In this document: positions 6,307 through 20,713 of the stretch, piece after piece | How positions within the stretch are numbered: the first letter of the stretch is position 1 | Layout: each line of letters begins with the position of its first letter | Virus record (IMG/VR): IMGVR_UViG_3300024520_000582 | Coordinates: 1 to 20,786 of that record | Reading direction: 5' to 3' (one strand) | Source: a virus | Length of the DNA: 20,786 nucleotides | The notes under the pieces: generated by a model | The model's input: only the letters and a program-made list of their open reading frames with translations | What the model was told of the DNA's origin: nothing | The model's database searches: none | Position numbers and translations under genes: made by a program

Positions 6307-8136
6307 TTAAGGGTTAATAGCAGAAGAGTAGACATCAAATCTAGCTAAGTCTGAGGTTATACTTAAAGCCGATTGTCCTAGATTTACCCAATGCCCAAAA
6401 GTGCCAGTTAATGAAAGTATTGTGCTTTTTAGCACTCCGTTCTCATAAAGCCTAGCCTCTGAGCCTTCCTTGACTAATCGGAGCGTTTTCATTCCTCCAG
6501 TCATCGAGTACCCTGTGAAATCGTTGTTATTTCCCTCTGCTGATGTCATTCTAAACTCATTACTACTCTTCTTTAAGAACTGCCTACCTGTAGTTCCAGA
6601 AAGAAGTCTAGCTCCAACACCTAACGCGTTAGTCATGTCAATTTCCCACTCATAGGTAAAATCCCCCGATTGTGGTTCGACTCCCGCATAATAATCATCC
6701 GAACCAAAACGAATAACGTTAGATGATCCTGCAATGACTGAGGCTTGATTAGACGGATTAGACTGAGTTAAATTAACTCCGCTTGTGCCGTGGTCTATCA
6801 TGTCCGACACTAGAGGGTCAACACCATAAGCCACATCGACACCACCAGTAGTGGAAGTTATTTTAAATGATTGTGTAGGTAACGCCATATGCTCTACTGT
6901 AATTTGTAAGGTATCCTCAACGCTCTCCCCCACATCAATAGAACTAACAACGCATTTTATGTCAGCGAATGAGTCGGGATCACCTATATTTCCAGCATAA
7001 TCAACCGTCACAGTGCTACTCGTTGCGCTTCCGTTTATAGTCGCGTCAGTCGTTCCCGTTACCGTCCATGAATAAGTTAAGTCGGGCGCGTTTGAATCAA
7101 CCGTGGCGGTGTATACCTCGGAATCTGTAATATTTACAGGAGTTTGACCGCTAACAACTACGGAGTTTAAAAAGCCGAAACTAGAAACAAAAAACATTTT
7201 TGTTATGGGCTTAGAAACTAAAGCGTCATATTCTGCGCGCGTTCCCAACCATCCAAAATCAATCTCGTTTGGACTGGCAGGATCTGAGAAAATAGCGTCG
7301 TCGTTTATCGTCGCAATATCAGCGGCGTTTGTTGATATTCCGCTTAAATCTTGGTCGCCTGTATTTGTTCCACTCGTGTTTGAAAGCCTCGTTTCATCCG
7401 CTAAAGGATAAGATCTCTTATCGGTATTTAAAGAGATAGCCGCATTTTGAGTGATCTGCTCGCCCTCAATCAATATTACTGCCGTCTCTAAGTCAGATAT
7501 ATCTGTCTCGATTCCGCTTAAATCTTGATCGCCTGTATTTACTCCGCTTTGATTATCAATGACGATAATTTGTGAAGCGGTGACAAACTTGTTTACCGTT
7601 GCTGAGTCGTCTAAGTCATCTGGATTAATTATAACCGCGCCAGTTTTGGTATTGACTGAATCAACCGTATTTACTTGTGCGCCCGCTTCAATTCCTGCAA
7701 GCTTGCTTATGTCGCCCGCCGTAGTGTACTTATTTAATTGTGTTGAATCATCAATATCATCGGTATCTAAAACGACTATTCCCGTTTGCCCATTTACGGA
7801 GTCTACGTCTGCGCTAACAATTTCCCAACCTGCATCTTTACGCGCGTATTGGCTTCCATCTTCGGGAGCTTCGGGGAAAGTGACCTTATCCGTATTCAGT
7901 GCAATGGCTGAATCTTGCGCATCTTGCTGATTCTTTAAATCTATTTGGTCGGAAAGTGTTCCTGTAATTGTTCCCCAAGTTCCACCGCTTCCCGCAGGAC
8001 CTGTCGCGCCACGGATGCCAACGCCCTCAATAGTTATCGTTTCAATCGTCTCGACCGTGATTACTTCAGTCGCTACATTGTCAATGGTTATAACTTTAGG
8101 CTCGATATTATCAATCGTGATTATTTGAGAAGACAT
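6307..8136 (-). CDS. Modular tail fibre protein
   Basis: This 609-residue fibre is built of modules. Residues 1-37 repeat a strand motif (IITIDN, VITIDN, VITVET, ITIEG). About 39-52 are collagen-like (GIRGATGPAGSGG). About 55-290 hold repeated fibre units: SVNGQTG/SVNTKTG with DDLDDS, NTGDQDLSGI twice, and SLNTDK twice with short coiled-coil heptads. Around 300-325, GTRAEYDAL...MFFV is a motif common in phage fibres. About 335-420 resemble an Ig/PKD-like domain (LTYSWTVTG). The C-terminal part of about 150 residues is a LamG-like head (DFTYEWEIDM, RLYENGVLKS). The repeats suggest a trimeric shaft with a receptor-binding tip. It starts one base after the preceding gene's stop. Confidence 0.85.
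   Translation of the reverse strand: MSSQIITIDNIEPKVITIDNVATEVITVETIETITIEGVGIRGATGPAGSGGTWGTITGTLSDQIDLKNQQDAQDSAIALNTDKVTFPEAPEDGSQYARKDAGWEIVSADVDSVNGQTGIVVLDTDDIDDSTQLNKYTTAGDISKLAGIEAGAQVNTVDSVNTKTGAVIINPDDLDDSATVNKFVTASQIIVIDNQSGVNTGDQDLSGIETDISDLETAVILIEGEQITQNAAISLNTDKRSYPLADETRLSNTSGTNTGDQDLSGISTNAADIATINDDAIFSDPASPNEIDFGWLGTRAEYDALVSKPITKMFFVSSFGFLNSVVVSGQTPVNITDSEVYTATVDSNAPDLTYSWTVTGTTDATINGSATSSTVTVDYAGNIGDPDSFADIKCVVSSIDVGESVEDTLQITVEHMALPTQSFKITSTTGGVDVAYGVDPLVSDMIDHGTSGVNLTQSNPSNQASVIAGSSNVIRFGSDDYYAGVEPQSGDFTYEWEIDMTNALGVGARLLSGTTGRQFLKKSSNEFRMTSAEGNNNDFTGYSMTGGMKTLRLVKEGSEARLYENGVLKSTILSLTGTFGHWVNLGQSALSITSDLARFDVYSSAINP
7337..7540 (-). repeat. Repeat pair coding for NTGDQDLSGI in the fibre shaft
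   Basis: Positions 7337-7366 and 7511-7540 are 30 bases long and identical except for one base (G versus A). Each encodes the end of an S-G-x-NTGDQDLSGI fibre unit. Near identity at the DNA level, against a more diverged surrounding shaft, suggests recent duplication or exchange of fibre units. Confidence 0.75.
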
Positions 8137-16366: not shown

Positions 16367-17380
16367 CTACGCGTTAGTCACAAGCGCGGCGAGTGATACG
16401 TTTTTACGGTCGTATACTCGATCCCATGAAGTAGCTGCCTCAAACTCTGCGTTTGTTGCAGTTGCACCAGCAGGAGTTCCAACGAAGGACATACCGTATG
16501 GATGGAAGATGAAGTCACGACGTGAAACTAAAGAGCTCTCACCTGCACCGTCACCGCTCAACTCTTCGCGCTGAACTGCTTCGGGAGTGTAATTAGCGGC
16601 AGGATTGAAACCCGCACCAAAAGCACCCGCACCGATAAGGTAAGAAGTGTATGCACTTGAGTTAGTACCAGCTACAACAGGCATGTCATCGTCAATGATG
16701 AGCATTAAACCTTGATAGCTATCAAAGCCAGTATTGGTCTGTGACTTCGGAATGAATGCGTTTGGCTCAAGCAATTCTAGCTGCTTCTTAACGAGTGAGT
16801 GCATCGCGATAGCTACAAGCTTATCGTTTTTGTCGCCCATCGTGTATTTAGCTTCAGTAATTGCCGCACCGCTGATCTTCATTGCGTCGGTAATTGAACC
16901 CGCAACAACGTCAGAATAGACGCTATAGCTCATATCACCAGCATCATTGGCAGTATTGTCAGCAAAGACACCCTTGAGTTGAGCAAGGATAACGCGTTGC
17001 ATATTGTACTGCCAAGACTCGGAAACTTCAGCACCAATTGAAGTCAATGCGTCATCACCTGCGAGAAGCGAGGCAAGATCCATGTCAGACCAGCCGATAG
17101 TACGGAAACAACGCGCGCCGATCATCTTGGCGGATGTAAGCTTGCCAGTGACGAGGTTTGAAGCGGAGTTATCAGAACCAACAGTGTCGGATTGGCGAGC
17201 TACGGATTTATTGAATGGAACGTTTACAGTATCGCCACCCATAGAAACGAATTGATCGAGACGCGGATCACGAACTGCCAAGCCGCTTTGAATAAGCGCG
17301 AGTGCTGAAATTGAAGGTTCAAAAGTGTAGTCTGTGAAGACTTCGGGGATAATTCTGTCTGAGATAGTTGTAGTACCCAT
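16367..17380 (-). CDS. Major capsid protein
   Basis: This 337-residue protein has the look of an HK97-fold coat protein of the group that starts DRIIPEVFTDYTFEPSISAL. It then has ALIQSGLAVRDPRLDQFVSM, GDTVNVPFNK, TGKLTSAKMIGARCFRTIGW (after a T-rich N-arm/E-loop-like part), a long spine-like helix with WQYNMQRVILAQLKGVFADN, and AIAMHSLVKKQLELLEPNAF. The C-terminal part has HPYGMSFVGTP. No cleavable delta domain is evident, which agrees with a separate scaffold gene. It is flanked by a hairpin leader (17381-17575) and a terminator. An AAAGG ribosome binding site precedes the start. Confidence 0.9.
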   Translation of the reverse strand: MGTTTISDRIIPEVFTDYTFEPSISALALIQSGLAVRDPRLDQFVSMGGDTVNVPFNKSVARQSDTVGSDNSASNLVTGKLTSAKMIGARCFRTIGWSDMDLASLLAGDDALTSIGAEVSESWQYNMQRVILAQLKGVFADNTANDAGDMSYSVYSDVVAGSITDAMKISGAAITEAKYTMGDKNDKLVAIAMHSLVKKQLELLEPNAFIPKSQTNTGFDSYQGLMLIIDDDMPVVAGTNSSAYTSYLIGAGAFGAGFNPAANYTPEAVQREELSGDGAGESSLVSRRDFIFHPYGMSFVGTPAGATATNAEFEAATSWDRVYDRKNVSLAALVTNA

Positions 17381-17575: not shown

Positions 17576-18361
17576 CTAGAACTTCGGCATACCGTTTTCT
17601 TTTGCGTACTTTGTTCTAGCATCAAGATTCATTCCAGCCCATTTTTCGGGACTCATTCCCGCGCTTGGTGCATTTGGTGAACCTTGACCACTTCCGCTTT
17701 TGGCATTAGACGAAAGCATGAAGCCAAAGCTTGCTAAATCATTGCTTGATATACCATCGAAAGAACCTTTAGACATAACCGCGCCAGTCACGCCTTCAAG
17801 CCATTCACCAGGAGACATTTGTTTCTCCCAAGCTCCCTGCTTGCTTGACATTCTCGCGCCTGTCTTGTCTTGATTCCATACAAAAGCGTTTCCTTCTGCA
17901 TCAGTGCCGATATACTTTGAAAGTACTTGCTTAGCAAAATCCGCTGAACCCTCTTGAAACTTAGAAGCGTTTGATGCGAAGATTGAGTTAATCGTATTTC
18001 TTTGATTGCCCTCTTTGATTTGGTTTTGGAGTTGTTCAATAGTTCCCTGTGAAGCCGTGAGTTTTTGCCCCATCTCATTTTTAAGCGACTCCAAAGCCTC
18101 GCTTGGTTTACCCGCTGACTGAGCTTTTATTTCAAGTTCTTTAATAGTTTCGGGTGTATACTCACCAAAACCTGTAAGCCTTTCCTTTCTGCTTGTGGCC
18201 TTTCCTTTTACCTCTTCAAGAGTTCGCTTTAATCCTGCGACATCTTCAAGGCCGAAACCATCAACGGATTCAACGCCTAAGACAAATTTACCATCTTCGC
18301 GACTGGTGTAATAATCTGTCATTCCTTCGGGTACTTCTTCAACAATAGCTTTGAGTAGCAT
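17576..18361 (-). CDS. Capsid scaffold protein
   Basis: The 261-residue product starts at ATG 18361, six bases after AGGAG (18368-18372). A TTG two codons earlier directly abuts the ribosome binding site and is less likely. The N-terminal part (IVEEVPEGMTDYYTSREDGK and FVLGVESVDGF) matches phage scaffold proteins that begin with a short structured domain. A coiled-coil-like centre follows (LKRTLEEVKGK, ALESLKNEMGQKLTASQGTI). The C-terminal tail is serine/glycine-rich and ends EKWAGMNLDARTKYAKENG. Position just before the major capsid gene is canonical. No protease domain is visible, so it appears to be a scaffold only. Confidence 0.83.
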   Translation of the reverse strand: MLLKAIVEEVPEGMTDYYTSREDGKFVLGVESVDGFGLEDVAGLKRTLEEVKGKATSRKERLTGFGEYTPETIKELEIKAQSAGKPSEALESLKNEMGQKLTASQGTIEQLQNQIKEGNQRNTINSIFASNASKFQEGSADFAKQVLSKYIGTDAEGNAFVWNQDKTGARMSSKQGAWEKQMSPGEWLEGVTGAVMSKGSFDGISSNDLASFGFMLSSNAKSGSGQGSPNAPSAGMSPEKWAGMNLDARTKYAKENGMPKF

Positions 18362-18425
18362 ACTCAACTCCTTTTTTTATATTTGGCGAACACCGCCGTT
18401 TTTGTTTATTTGCATCATGCAAAAA

Positions 18426-18674
18426 TTAATAAATCTCTTCTGTGGCTTCGTCTAATTCTTTTAGGTGAATTATGTAATCAAATTCAATAAAATCTAAATT
18501 AAGTAAGGTCATAACGTCATCTAATAAGTTTGTGACTTCGGGAAAATAATTAGCTTTTGTCGTTTCTATCCCGTCGTACTTCTTTATTTCAGATGATGTC
18601 TTTAATTCTCCTTTATTGTTTTCAATAAGTAGTATTGAGCCTTTTTCGGTTTCGATTGTCGCCAGTGTTTTCAT
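18426..18674 (-). CDS. Small acidic protein between minor head and scaffold genes, unknown
   Basis: This 82-residue protein starts at ATG 18674, overlapping the MuF-fusion stop by ATGA (18671-18674). It has an N-terminal beta meander (TIETEKGSILLIENNKGELK) and an acidic helical end (NLLDDVMTLLNLDFIEFDYI). No family is recognised. The tight coupling to the gene before it raises the possibility of a partner or inhibitor of its protease-like domain, but that is speculation. The 18375-18425 gap after it holds only a short palindrome and AT-rich sequence. Confidence 0.65.
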   Translation of the reverse strand: MKTLATIETEKGSILLIENNKGELKTSSEIKKYDGIETTKANYFPEVTNLLDDVMTLLNLDFIEFDYIIHLKELDEATEEIY

Positions 18675-20713
18675 CTTAAAGCATCCACTATAAATTCAAA
18701 ATAATCCGGATCGGCTTCTGCAAAGGCTTGCGCATCTTCTATAAATAGCTCCATGCCCATACTTATTGCCTCCGTTGAACCTCCTTTATATGTCTTACCC
18801 ATATACAGAGCACTTGCATTGTTCACCCAATCTGACTCATTTGGCCTAACTGCCTTTATCGCCTTGATAAAATTATCAGCGTTACCGTATTCGCCTTTCA
18901 TGCCGTATTTGGATAAACTTTCTTTGGGTGAGTTTTTAGTCCTTCTTTTTATAAACTCCTGCGCTTTTAATTGTAGGCCATCTTTTGTGTCCTCTATATG
19001 ATGTGCTACTTCGTGATAAATAGCGTCAACAGAGGCGCTTGAGTGTAAACCTAAATAAGCACCCGAGCCAGTAAATTTATTTTTTTCAGCATAAAAAGCC
19101 CTTTTACTTCTGTTTTGAAATAAACCTATATTTTCATCTATAGACCCAGCTGGTAATACTTTTGAATAGTCCGAAAGCACTTTATCTACATTTTTTTGTA
19201 AGTCCTTGGATATTTTCAAGCCCTTAGCAGTACCCGAGGCAGAAGTTCTTCTTTCTCCCGTCAAGCTAGTCGATTTAAAATCAAAGTTTGGTTTTTTCTT
19301 GTTTATATCTTGTCCTATCAGCATGCTAAAAGCCTCATCTGATCTTTTTTGAGGGTCTGTAGACATTTTCATTTTTTGAAAATCCTTAGTTATCTCTGCT
19401 GAAGTCTTAACCTTCTTTTTAGGTGGTGATTTTTTAACAGGCTTTTTCTTTTTGAGTTTAGCCGTCTCATCCTCAATCTTCTTTAATTCTGCTTTTTTGT
19501 CACTAACAATTTTCTGAGTAGCCTCAAGTTTCTTTTTGGCATCGGCCGTCTTTTTCTTTTGCTCTTCAAGCTTTTCTTTTAACCTGTCAGCCTTTGACCT
19601 TACGGGAGTCCTCTTTTTTGGCTTAGTTTCAGTAACCCCACCACCTCTACGCCTTCTTTTATCAAGATTCGCTTTCACTTGCTCGGCGGTTAATGGCTCA
19701 CCTATTCGATTAACAAAATCTTTCATATCTAAATTATTATCTCTGAATAGCTTGGCTTTGTCTTCTCCAAGTGCTTCATTTTGAACATTCTCAGATTGAC
19801 CTTTCAACCATTCGCCGTAGTCAGTCTTTGCGCTAATTGACTTCCCGTCCATATCTCGACGAGTTCCCGCGCTTAATTCGGGCGCGTCGATGCCTAACTC
19901 TTTCCAAGACTTCAATACAGGTACGATTGTACTCCTGCAATTTGGGTGGGCTGGCGGTTTTCTTCTCTTTGGATCGTCTAAATTATATATTTCACCGTCA
20001 AGACTTTTACAAATATCACTCGTGCGCGTGTCAAGAGTTGAAACCCATTCGTACGCTTTTACGACGTCTGAGTTTTCATAAAAAGTCGTTTCTCTCACTT
20101 CAGCACTCACCGCAGTTTGAACCGTTCGCGCTATTGTCTGAGCATTGACACCCTTTTTATTTATAACGCCTCTTACCCGCTGAGTTAATTCGCTTATCGT
20201 CTCGCCGTTATTTATTCCCATTCTTAATTGTTGGGTTACTTTACCATCAAAATCTGCAACAAAGTTTGTGACGGTTTCTTGAATTGTTGATCCATTTATG
20301 AGAGTGTTTCTTATTGTCTCGTTTATTGTAGCCTCATTGACTCCGCGAACTACAAAACCCAAGTCAAGAACTTCATCGGGGATTGCCTCATTCAAAGCAT
20401 CCACTTGCTGAGTCATTGAAATGAGGCCAGTTTGTTTAGCATTCTCAATAATTACATCATTAAATAAAAGATCTGTTTTTTGCGCAGCCAACTTATTCAA
20501 AAAATTCATCATTCCAGCTAACTGCCTTAGTTGCTGATCTCTTGGCAAGCCTTCAATCCTCGCGAGACTGTTATTTAAGCCTTCTATATAATCGGGTGCA
20601 AAGTCTTTACGCATGAATGCAATAACGTCTCGAACTTCCCGCGCCTTCATTCTCTCAAGAGTAACCGCGTCTTTTATTCCTTCGTCCAAAGCTCTTTCGT
20701 TTGCAGTAGCCAT
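18671..20713 (-). CDS. MuF-type minor head protein fused to a zinc-metallopeptidase-like domain
   Basis: This 680-residue protein starts at ATG 20713 after AGGGGAG. Residues about 130-275 carry the Mu gpF/SPP1 gp7-like region: ARTVQTAVSAEVRETTFYEN, WVSTLDTRTSDICKSLDGEI with C235, and PPAHPNCRSTIVPVL with H256 and C259. These minor head proteins bind the portal inside the capsid. A strongly basic, coiled-coil linker spans about 350-437 (KLKKKKPVKKSPPKKKVK). The C-terminal domain has HEVAH at 567-571 (zinc-binding HExxH) and a downstream STEAISMGMELF with E648 or E655 as candidate third ligand, a gluzincin layout. The MuF part matches the usual phage neighbours. The protease part is unusual and could act in head maturation, or be injected. 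Confidence 0.85.
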   Translation of the reverse strand: MATANERALDEGIKDAVTLERMKAREVRDVIAFMRKDFAPDYIEGLNNSLARIEGLPRDQQLRQLAGMMNFLNKLAAQKTDLLFNDVIIENAKQTGLISMTQQVDALNEAIPDEVLDLGFVVRGVNEATINETIRNTLINGSTIQETVTNFVADFDGKVTQQLRMGINNGETISELTQRVRGVINKKGVNAQTIARTVQTAVSAEVRETTFYENSDVVKAYEWVSTLDTRTSDICKSLDGEIYNLDDPKRRKPPAHPNCRSTIVPVLKSWKELGIDAPELSAGTRRDMDGKSISAKTDYGEWLKGQSENVQNEALGEDKAKLFRDNNLDMKDFVNRIGEPLTAEQVKANLDKRRRRGGGVTETKPKKRTPVRSKADRLKEKLEEQKKKTADAKKKLEATQKIVSDKKAELKKIEDETAKLKKKKPVKKSPPKKKVKTSAEITKDFQKMKMSTDPQKRSDEAFSMLIGQDINKKKPNFDFKSTSLTGERRTSASGTAKGLKISKDLQKNVDKVLSDYSKVLPAGSIDENIGLFQNRSKRAFYAEKNKFTGSGAYLGLHSSASVDAIYHEVAHHIEDTKDGLQLKAQEFIKRRTKNSPKESLSKYGMKGEYGNADNFIKAIKAVRPNESDWVNNASALYMGKTYKGGSTEAISMGMELFIEDAQAFAEADPDYFEFIVDALR

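Follow-up and report, generated by a model that had tools for sequence, protein, structure and literature searches.

MuF proteins are common. The locus described here resembles the MuF polymorphic toxins, among them Apk2 (with IapK/Aph1) and Bxa (with Bsi/BAH), in its N-terminal MuF domain, its variable C-terminal enzyme, a small open reading frame (ORF) directly 3′ and its place in the head module. The toxins characterised so far act as an alarmone synthetase and an ADP-ribosyltransferase, whereas the member in our window is a zincin; we know of no zincin of this kind that has been characterised. We read the cassette as a new member of this known MuF effector family, notable for near-isogenic natural pairs and for a family of candidate inhibitors. 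Small immunity proteins encoded beside Apk2 and Bxa neutralise these toxins, one kind by blocking the active site (PMC11699363, PMC12226406). A survey of predicted MuF toxins found a metallopeptidase domain in 20% and a following ORF of <150 aa in 89% (Jamet et al. 2017; PMC5576092). The same study tied MuF toxins to temperate phages, whereas pippi8-1, a Flavobacterium phage with a relative of our zincin, is described as lytic. The MuF relative gp7 of SPP1 is brought into the procapsid in a few copies by the portal, is dispensable for assembly and aids the start of infection (PMC6316719).

Two further systems are close to the locus. The zincin-like metallopeptidases (MPTases) of polyvalent proteins (Iyer et al. 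2017), such as P1 DdrB and N4 vRNAP, are likewise HExxH zincins on phage proteins that are thought to be packaged and injected. The window domain differs in having no Pfam metallopeptidase match, a signature of its own and a conserved small partner gene, and it may be one of the 12 MPTase clades of Iyer et al. VgrG2b, whose C-terminal metallopeptidase is paired with the immunity protein PA0261, is a proven zinc-metallopeptidase effector/immunity pair in which the effector is fused to a structural delivery protein and the immunity gene is adjacent (PMC6899460). VgrG2b is a T6SS spike that acts in the periplasm, whereas the window zincin is part of a phage head protein; the likeness is one of architecture.

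The window, the whole 20.8-kb stretch of DNA analysed here (20,786 nucleotides), is a virus record that is probably a fragment, and a search of cultured phages found no near relative of it. Between 18671 and 20713 the plus-strand translation is riddled with stops; the ORF is real on the minus strand and encodes a MuF–zincin protein (Table 1). The gene sits in a head module, with the scaffold and major capsid protein genes after it and the portal side beyond the window edge; a 451-aa ORF precedes it in L097, one of the sister contigs described below. On sequence grounds the MuF assignment of the N-terminal part is secure, with TIGR01641 (E 8.8e-24) matching alongside the Pfam family. The original prediction had read this gene as encoding a minor head protein of the MuF type whose C-terminal zincin looks complete, which was correct: C235 and H256-P-N-C259-R260 of the MuF region, a long lysine-rich linker (29% Lys over residues 357–480) and the C-terminal HEVAH and STEAISMGME motifs, with H567, E568, H571, E648 and E655, are all where it had placed them. 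Elsewhere in the window (6307–8136, minus strand), a tail-fibre-like protein carries repeated GTNTGDQDLSG-type motifs.

Table 1 Features of the MuF–zincin locus in the window.
Feature	Position	Strand	Basis or remark
MuF–zincin gene, 680 aa	18671..20713	minus	ATG at 20713, stop 18673–18671
MuF core, residues 1–356	19646..20713	minus	97% identical to sisters; complete short protein in L096/L097, partial in L098
Phage_Mu_F domain PF04233, residues 158–263	19925..20242	minus	Pfam E 1.3e-17; carries C235, H256-P-N-C259
Lys-rich linker, residues 357–469, start of variable cassette	19307..19645	minus	missing in sisters
Zincin domain, modelled region, residues 470–680	18674..19306	minus	alignment, AlphaFold2 model, VIA-align
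HEVAH, residues 567–571: predicted zinc ligands H567 and H571, predicted general base E568	19001..19015	minus	invariant in 66 sequences
E648, predicted third zinc ligand	18770..18772	minus	at least 90% conserved; N-terminus of C-terminal helix (model helix 180–198)
82-aa acidic ORF, C-terminus -EEIY, candidate inhibitor/immunity partner	18426..18674	minus	overlaps MuF–zincin stop by 4 bases; gained/lost with zincin
Variable cassette, ~1217 bp (linker, zincin and small ORF)	18429..19645	minus	homology with sisters resumes at small ORF stop
Scaffolding protein (context)	17576..18367	minus	phrog_206 E 2.7e-15; next gene in sisters as well
Major capsid protein (context)	16367..17380	minus	phrog_247 E 5.8e-82

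The last ~210 aa form a zincin whose family has no Pfam model. A Pfam scan of the last 240 aa returned no family and no metallopeptidase model, even at E 1; the region matched PHROGs 33618 (9.6e-15), 20397, 19443 and 2299. Using the C terminus as a tblastn query, we found relatives in six unrelated phage groups, including Planktothrix phage PaV-LD, Xanthomonas phage Rb1, Vibrio phages of the K471 group, Flavobacterium phage pippi8-1 and Lactococcus phages 62503/50902; others lie on P1-like phage-plasmids of Vibrionaceae. An alignment of eight sequences was too divergent for a pattern search, and a three-sequence subset gave a working pattern; the scan of viral contigs yielded 76 zincin loci. 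As a query by itself, the zincin found no match in a close-relative search of viral contigs, and it was matched in 3 of the 386 genomes of one bacterial phylum. Sequence searches of solved structures and of PADLOC gave chance matches only. The PHROG matches, the relatives in phages and viral contigs, and the conserved putative ligands place the HEVAH/STEAISMGME region beyond chance.

Across 66 aligned domains, H567, E568 and H571 are invariant, and R538, E574, Y637, G639, Y642, E648 and S651 are each at least 90% conserved, giving the signature HExxHxxE...Y.GK.Y...TE..SMG with a His–Glu spacing of 77 residues. Because one search pattern itself contained HExxH, we ran a control restricted to members found by tblastn, as flanking paralogues or by the second pattern alone. 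All 25 complete members of this set keep the HExxH and Tyr/Glu signature, the single exception being a member cut by a contig end, so the frequent loss of zinc-site residues in homologues that would have counted against the original prediction was not seen; on sequence, nothing speaks against a zinc site either. For the third zinc ligand, proposed as E648 or E655, the choice narrows: E648, within T-E, is the conserved candidate, and E655 is replaced by Q or T in several relatives.

An AlphaFold2 model of residues 470–680 (pLDDT 80.4, pTM 0.79) shows its elements in zincin order (H34–50, E61–64, E71–73, E84–87, H93–107 and H180–198), with a helix, a β-sheet, the HExxH helix and a C-terminal helix that bears the Glu. 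Foldseek returned nothing under E 0.1 from the PDB. In VIA-align, lethal-factor catalytic domains and PPEP-1/2/3 took ranks 1–34, with Z from 8.8 to about 7.5 (Z 8.8 over 140–153 residues); nearly all of the 50 matches listed were zincins, and the other zincins ranked below this group. We conclude that the domain is a zincin and that the M34 type is probably closest to it, in keeping with the likeness to lethal-factor-type gluzincins proposed earlier. M34-type zincins share the HExxH, the Tyr and the Glu in the C-terminal helix with the window domain, but at 9–14% identity there is no significant sequence match, the 77-residue His–Glu spacing sets the window domain apart and, if it is delivered, its carrier would be a phage capsid. 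With Foldseek E values above 0.1 as well, M34 membership is a candidate assignment and not a proven one.

Searching with the MuF core, we found sister contigs in which the MuF C terminus is different. Three of them (L096, L097 and L098) are 91–97% identical to the window in the flanks, and their MuF protein is short, at 356 aa, and ends ...VKANLERRRRR*. They lack precisely the stretch of linker, zincin and 82-aa ORF, and from exactly the TAA stop of that ORF onwards they are homologous to the window again; two other contigs, L095 and L099, end within MuF and are uninformative on the cassette. Since the sisters lack this whole stretch between near-identical flanks, the linker, the zincin and the small ORF make up a single optional unit, which, judged by these comparisons, is dispensable for the head. 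The co-travel of the 82-aa ORF with the zincin had been overlooked in the original prediction.

Exchange of the C terminus behind a constant MuF part recurs in two further, independent cases from isolated phages. Lactococcus Vedamuthuviruses agree over the initial ~314 residues of MuF and on the scaffold side; phages 62503/50902 then carry the zincin and a 72-aa ORF, phages 58502/P1045 a different C-terminal domain and a 73–75-aa ORF, and BM13 and Q33 short MuF forms. The alternative C terminus of 58502 (L104:1830-3733) has a weak DUF3626 match and a 73-aa ORF (phrog_21609), and BM13 retains what looks like a deletion remnant of this type of C terminus. The Flavobacterium phages pippi8-1 and lotta8-1 share a host strain, and the sequences that flank the swap on either side are 99% identical between them. 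Pippi8-1 has a zincin of the window family and an ORF of the partner family described below, lotta8-1 has at the same site an HExxH domain of another kind followed by a different small ORF, and homology resumes at the end of the pippi8-1 small ORF. The HExxH C terminus of lotta8-1 (L114:1669-3397) gives a weak lethal-factor-family (ATLF) match and is followed by a 66-aa ORF. Such near-identical isolated pairs (Lactococcus 62503 versus 62502/BM13; Flavobacterium pippi8-1 versus lotta8-1) make the role of a capsid-carried protease, and its neutralisation by the small gene, directly testable.

An iterated hidden Markov model (HMM) gathered one family of small proteins (70–105 aa) directly 3′ of 54 of the 105 zincin ORFs, duplicates included. 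These partners usually end in -[IVL]Y: Tyr is the last residue of 31 of 44 distinct partners, in most cases preceded by I, V or L, and [IVL]Y ends are found on 1.2% of longer ORFs in the same contigs. They accompany zincins with MuF (22/44) and without MuF alike, and partner distances track zincin distances after removal of the MuF component (partial r 0.41, permutation p 0.0005). Neither a Pfam scan of two members nor a PHROGs scan of five members found a family. The AlphaFold2 model of one partner (pLDDT 83, pTM 0.67) has strands, two helices and a strand, with the final ~11 residues devoid of secondary structure, and the search for a structural match gave none convincing (best Z 2.9). A partner-first scan of viral contigs recovered just four loci, all of them known before, and a partner search in genomes of one bacterial phylum found no match, with the positive control equally silent. 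In contig L026 (3-6447), three small partner ORFs lie between five tandem zincin ORFs, so that the zincin/partner module is naturally amplified.

The 82-aa ORF of the window resembles this family in position, size, the 4-base overlap, acidity and the -EEIY end. Against the partner HMM it was not significant (leave-one-out E 3.6), hhalign found nothing, and a search of phages and viral contigs returned no relative. Because of that E value, we put forward its membership as a suggestion drawn from position, co-inheritance and C terminus. Some phage-plasmids and large phages have a large protein, not a small one, as the next gene. We also observed a second partner-like group of ~97–102 aa with a GAFGHLI motif, found also as the N terminus of a larger next protein, which did not join the first family statistically. 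Its members in L084, L088, L092 and L003:4841 form the N terminus of the large protein after the zincin gene, that of L084 with a DdrA-like match and that of L003 with an SNF2-type neighbour; a partner may sometimes be carried along instead of left behind.

We think it fairly likely that the locus is a MuF-type effector cassette, a capsid-delivered zincin with a candidate inhibitor. Its presence or absence as one unit among near-identical phages argues for optional protease cargo with a candidate protective partner, and not for a part in head assembly; an effector protease with a cognate inhibitor is the most likely form because of the precedents of SPP1 gp7, Apk2/Bxa, the MuF-toxin survey and VgrG2b. 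The unit would be grafted onto the 3′ end of the minor-head gene. The MuF core would bind the portal and take a few copies of the zincin into the head, as studied MuF proteins suggest, and the zincin would then enter the next cell along with the DNA and cleave at least one bacterial protein there. Until the zincin is packaged, the small protein, whose translation begins at the overlapping start codon, would keep it inactive in the producing cell by binding to it, and we suspect that the flexible partner tail ending in -[IVL]Y fills the active-site cleft like a bound product. The activity, delivery, target and inhibition of the zincin are what we infer by analogy, and the reading as a capsid-delivered effector is supported but not proven.

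Pippi8-1 and its relatives are reported to be strictly lytic (PMC7077304), so protection of lysogens cannot by itself explain the cassette; this points rather to a part played inside the infected cell, in host takeover or counter-defence, or to the need for a quiet protease during assembly. More tentatively, the small downstream proteins could be a new, unnamed family of zincin inhibitors that insert their -[IVL]Y tail into the active site, within a module that is mobile across MuF, portal and polyvalent carriers, strictly lytic phages included, and that serves host infection, not competition by lysogens. A conserved small-protein family tied to one protease family would be a ready source of metalloprotease inhibitors for study.

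MuF is found on 27 of the 60 full-length zincin proteins. Other carriers are a Mu-type or other portal domain, ddrB-ParB and an ADP-ribosyltransferase-like region; the zincin is also found on phage-plasmid proteins and, in some relatives, beside SNF2/DarB-like genes. The ddrB-ParB carriers and SNF2/DarB-like neighbours, and the long basic linker ahead of the zincin, would suit an enzyme that frees a part of its own MuF polypeptide (by a cut in the Lys-rich linker, for instance) or of neighbouring cargo, either ahead of packaging or once injected, with the small ORF as regulator. Iyer et al. propose that metallopeptidases of polyvalent proteins, P1 DdrB among them, cleave themselves in this way, but N4 vRNAP and ArdC are carried unprocessed (PMC5512222). 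Here MuF is the sole other domain, the sisters use MuF without processing and only the zincin is obvious to release, and we regard self-processing as unlikely.

If the zincin is an effector, the small ORF might still be a passenger in the recombination unit, a chaperone or an unrelated moron, and not a dedicated inhibitor. That the window ORF has no significant relatives and that the small ORF of lotta8-1 looks unrelated to an inhibitor would fit this idea, but the conserved partner family that immediately follows zincins of differing N termini, its covariation with the zincin, the tandem zincin/partner arrays and the -EEIY end of the window ORF, set against the scarcity of such ends in the background, make it quite improbable.

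A prohead maturation protease acting on scaffold or capsid, one of the options first put forward, is strongly disfavoured. The gene does lie in the head module and, as had been noted, no other prohead protease gene is visible in the window. This lack is expected, because SPP1-type heads (portal, gp7/MuF, scaffold and major capsid protein) need no protease and assemble from gp6, gp11 and gp13 alone (PMC6316719). Against a maturation role, the sisters have near-identical MuF core, scaffold and capsid genes and no zincin, which thus varies within the head module of the group; in Lactococcus and Flavobacterium phages it is exchanged freely; and in pippi8-1 a ClpP-type protease is annotated as a gene of its own. 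The protein does match PHROG 595, whose name ‘head maturation protease’ might seem to support this role, but we rejected that argument because the match covers residues 118–487, the MuF part and linker, and not the zincin; the name is a misleading label for MuF proteins. A non-catalytic, zinc-stabilised extension of the minor head protein would suit the structural nature of MuF proteins, but is highly improbable when the general-base Glu and two Tyr, neither of which structure alone needs, are as conserved as the metal ligands.

Some carriers differ further from the window protein. In contig L043, a single chain of 1,191 aa joins portal, MuF and zincin (L043:2725-6294), and the zincin is also at the C terminus of a portal protein in L021:2842-6447 and L072:3196-6393; if so translated, such fusions would place about 12 copies at the portal vertex. 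In Planktothrix phage PaV-LD (L002, 3356-5601, and further places in HQ683709.1), several proteins have the N-terminal stretch CVKPTSYNCGAACINV in common and differ in their C termini, two of which are window-family zincins followed by a partner ORF; the common stretch resembles a tag in its own right, for capsid targeting or export.
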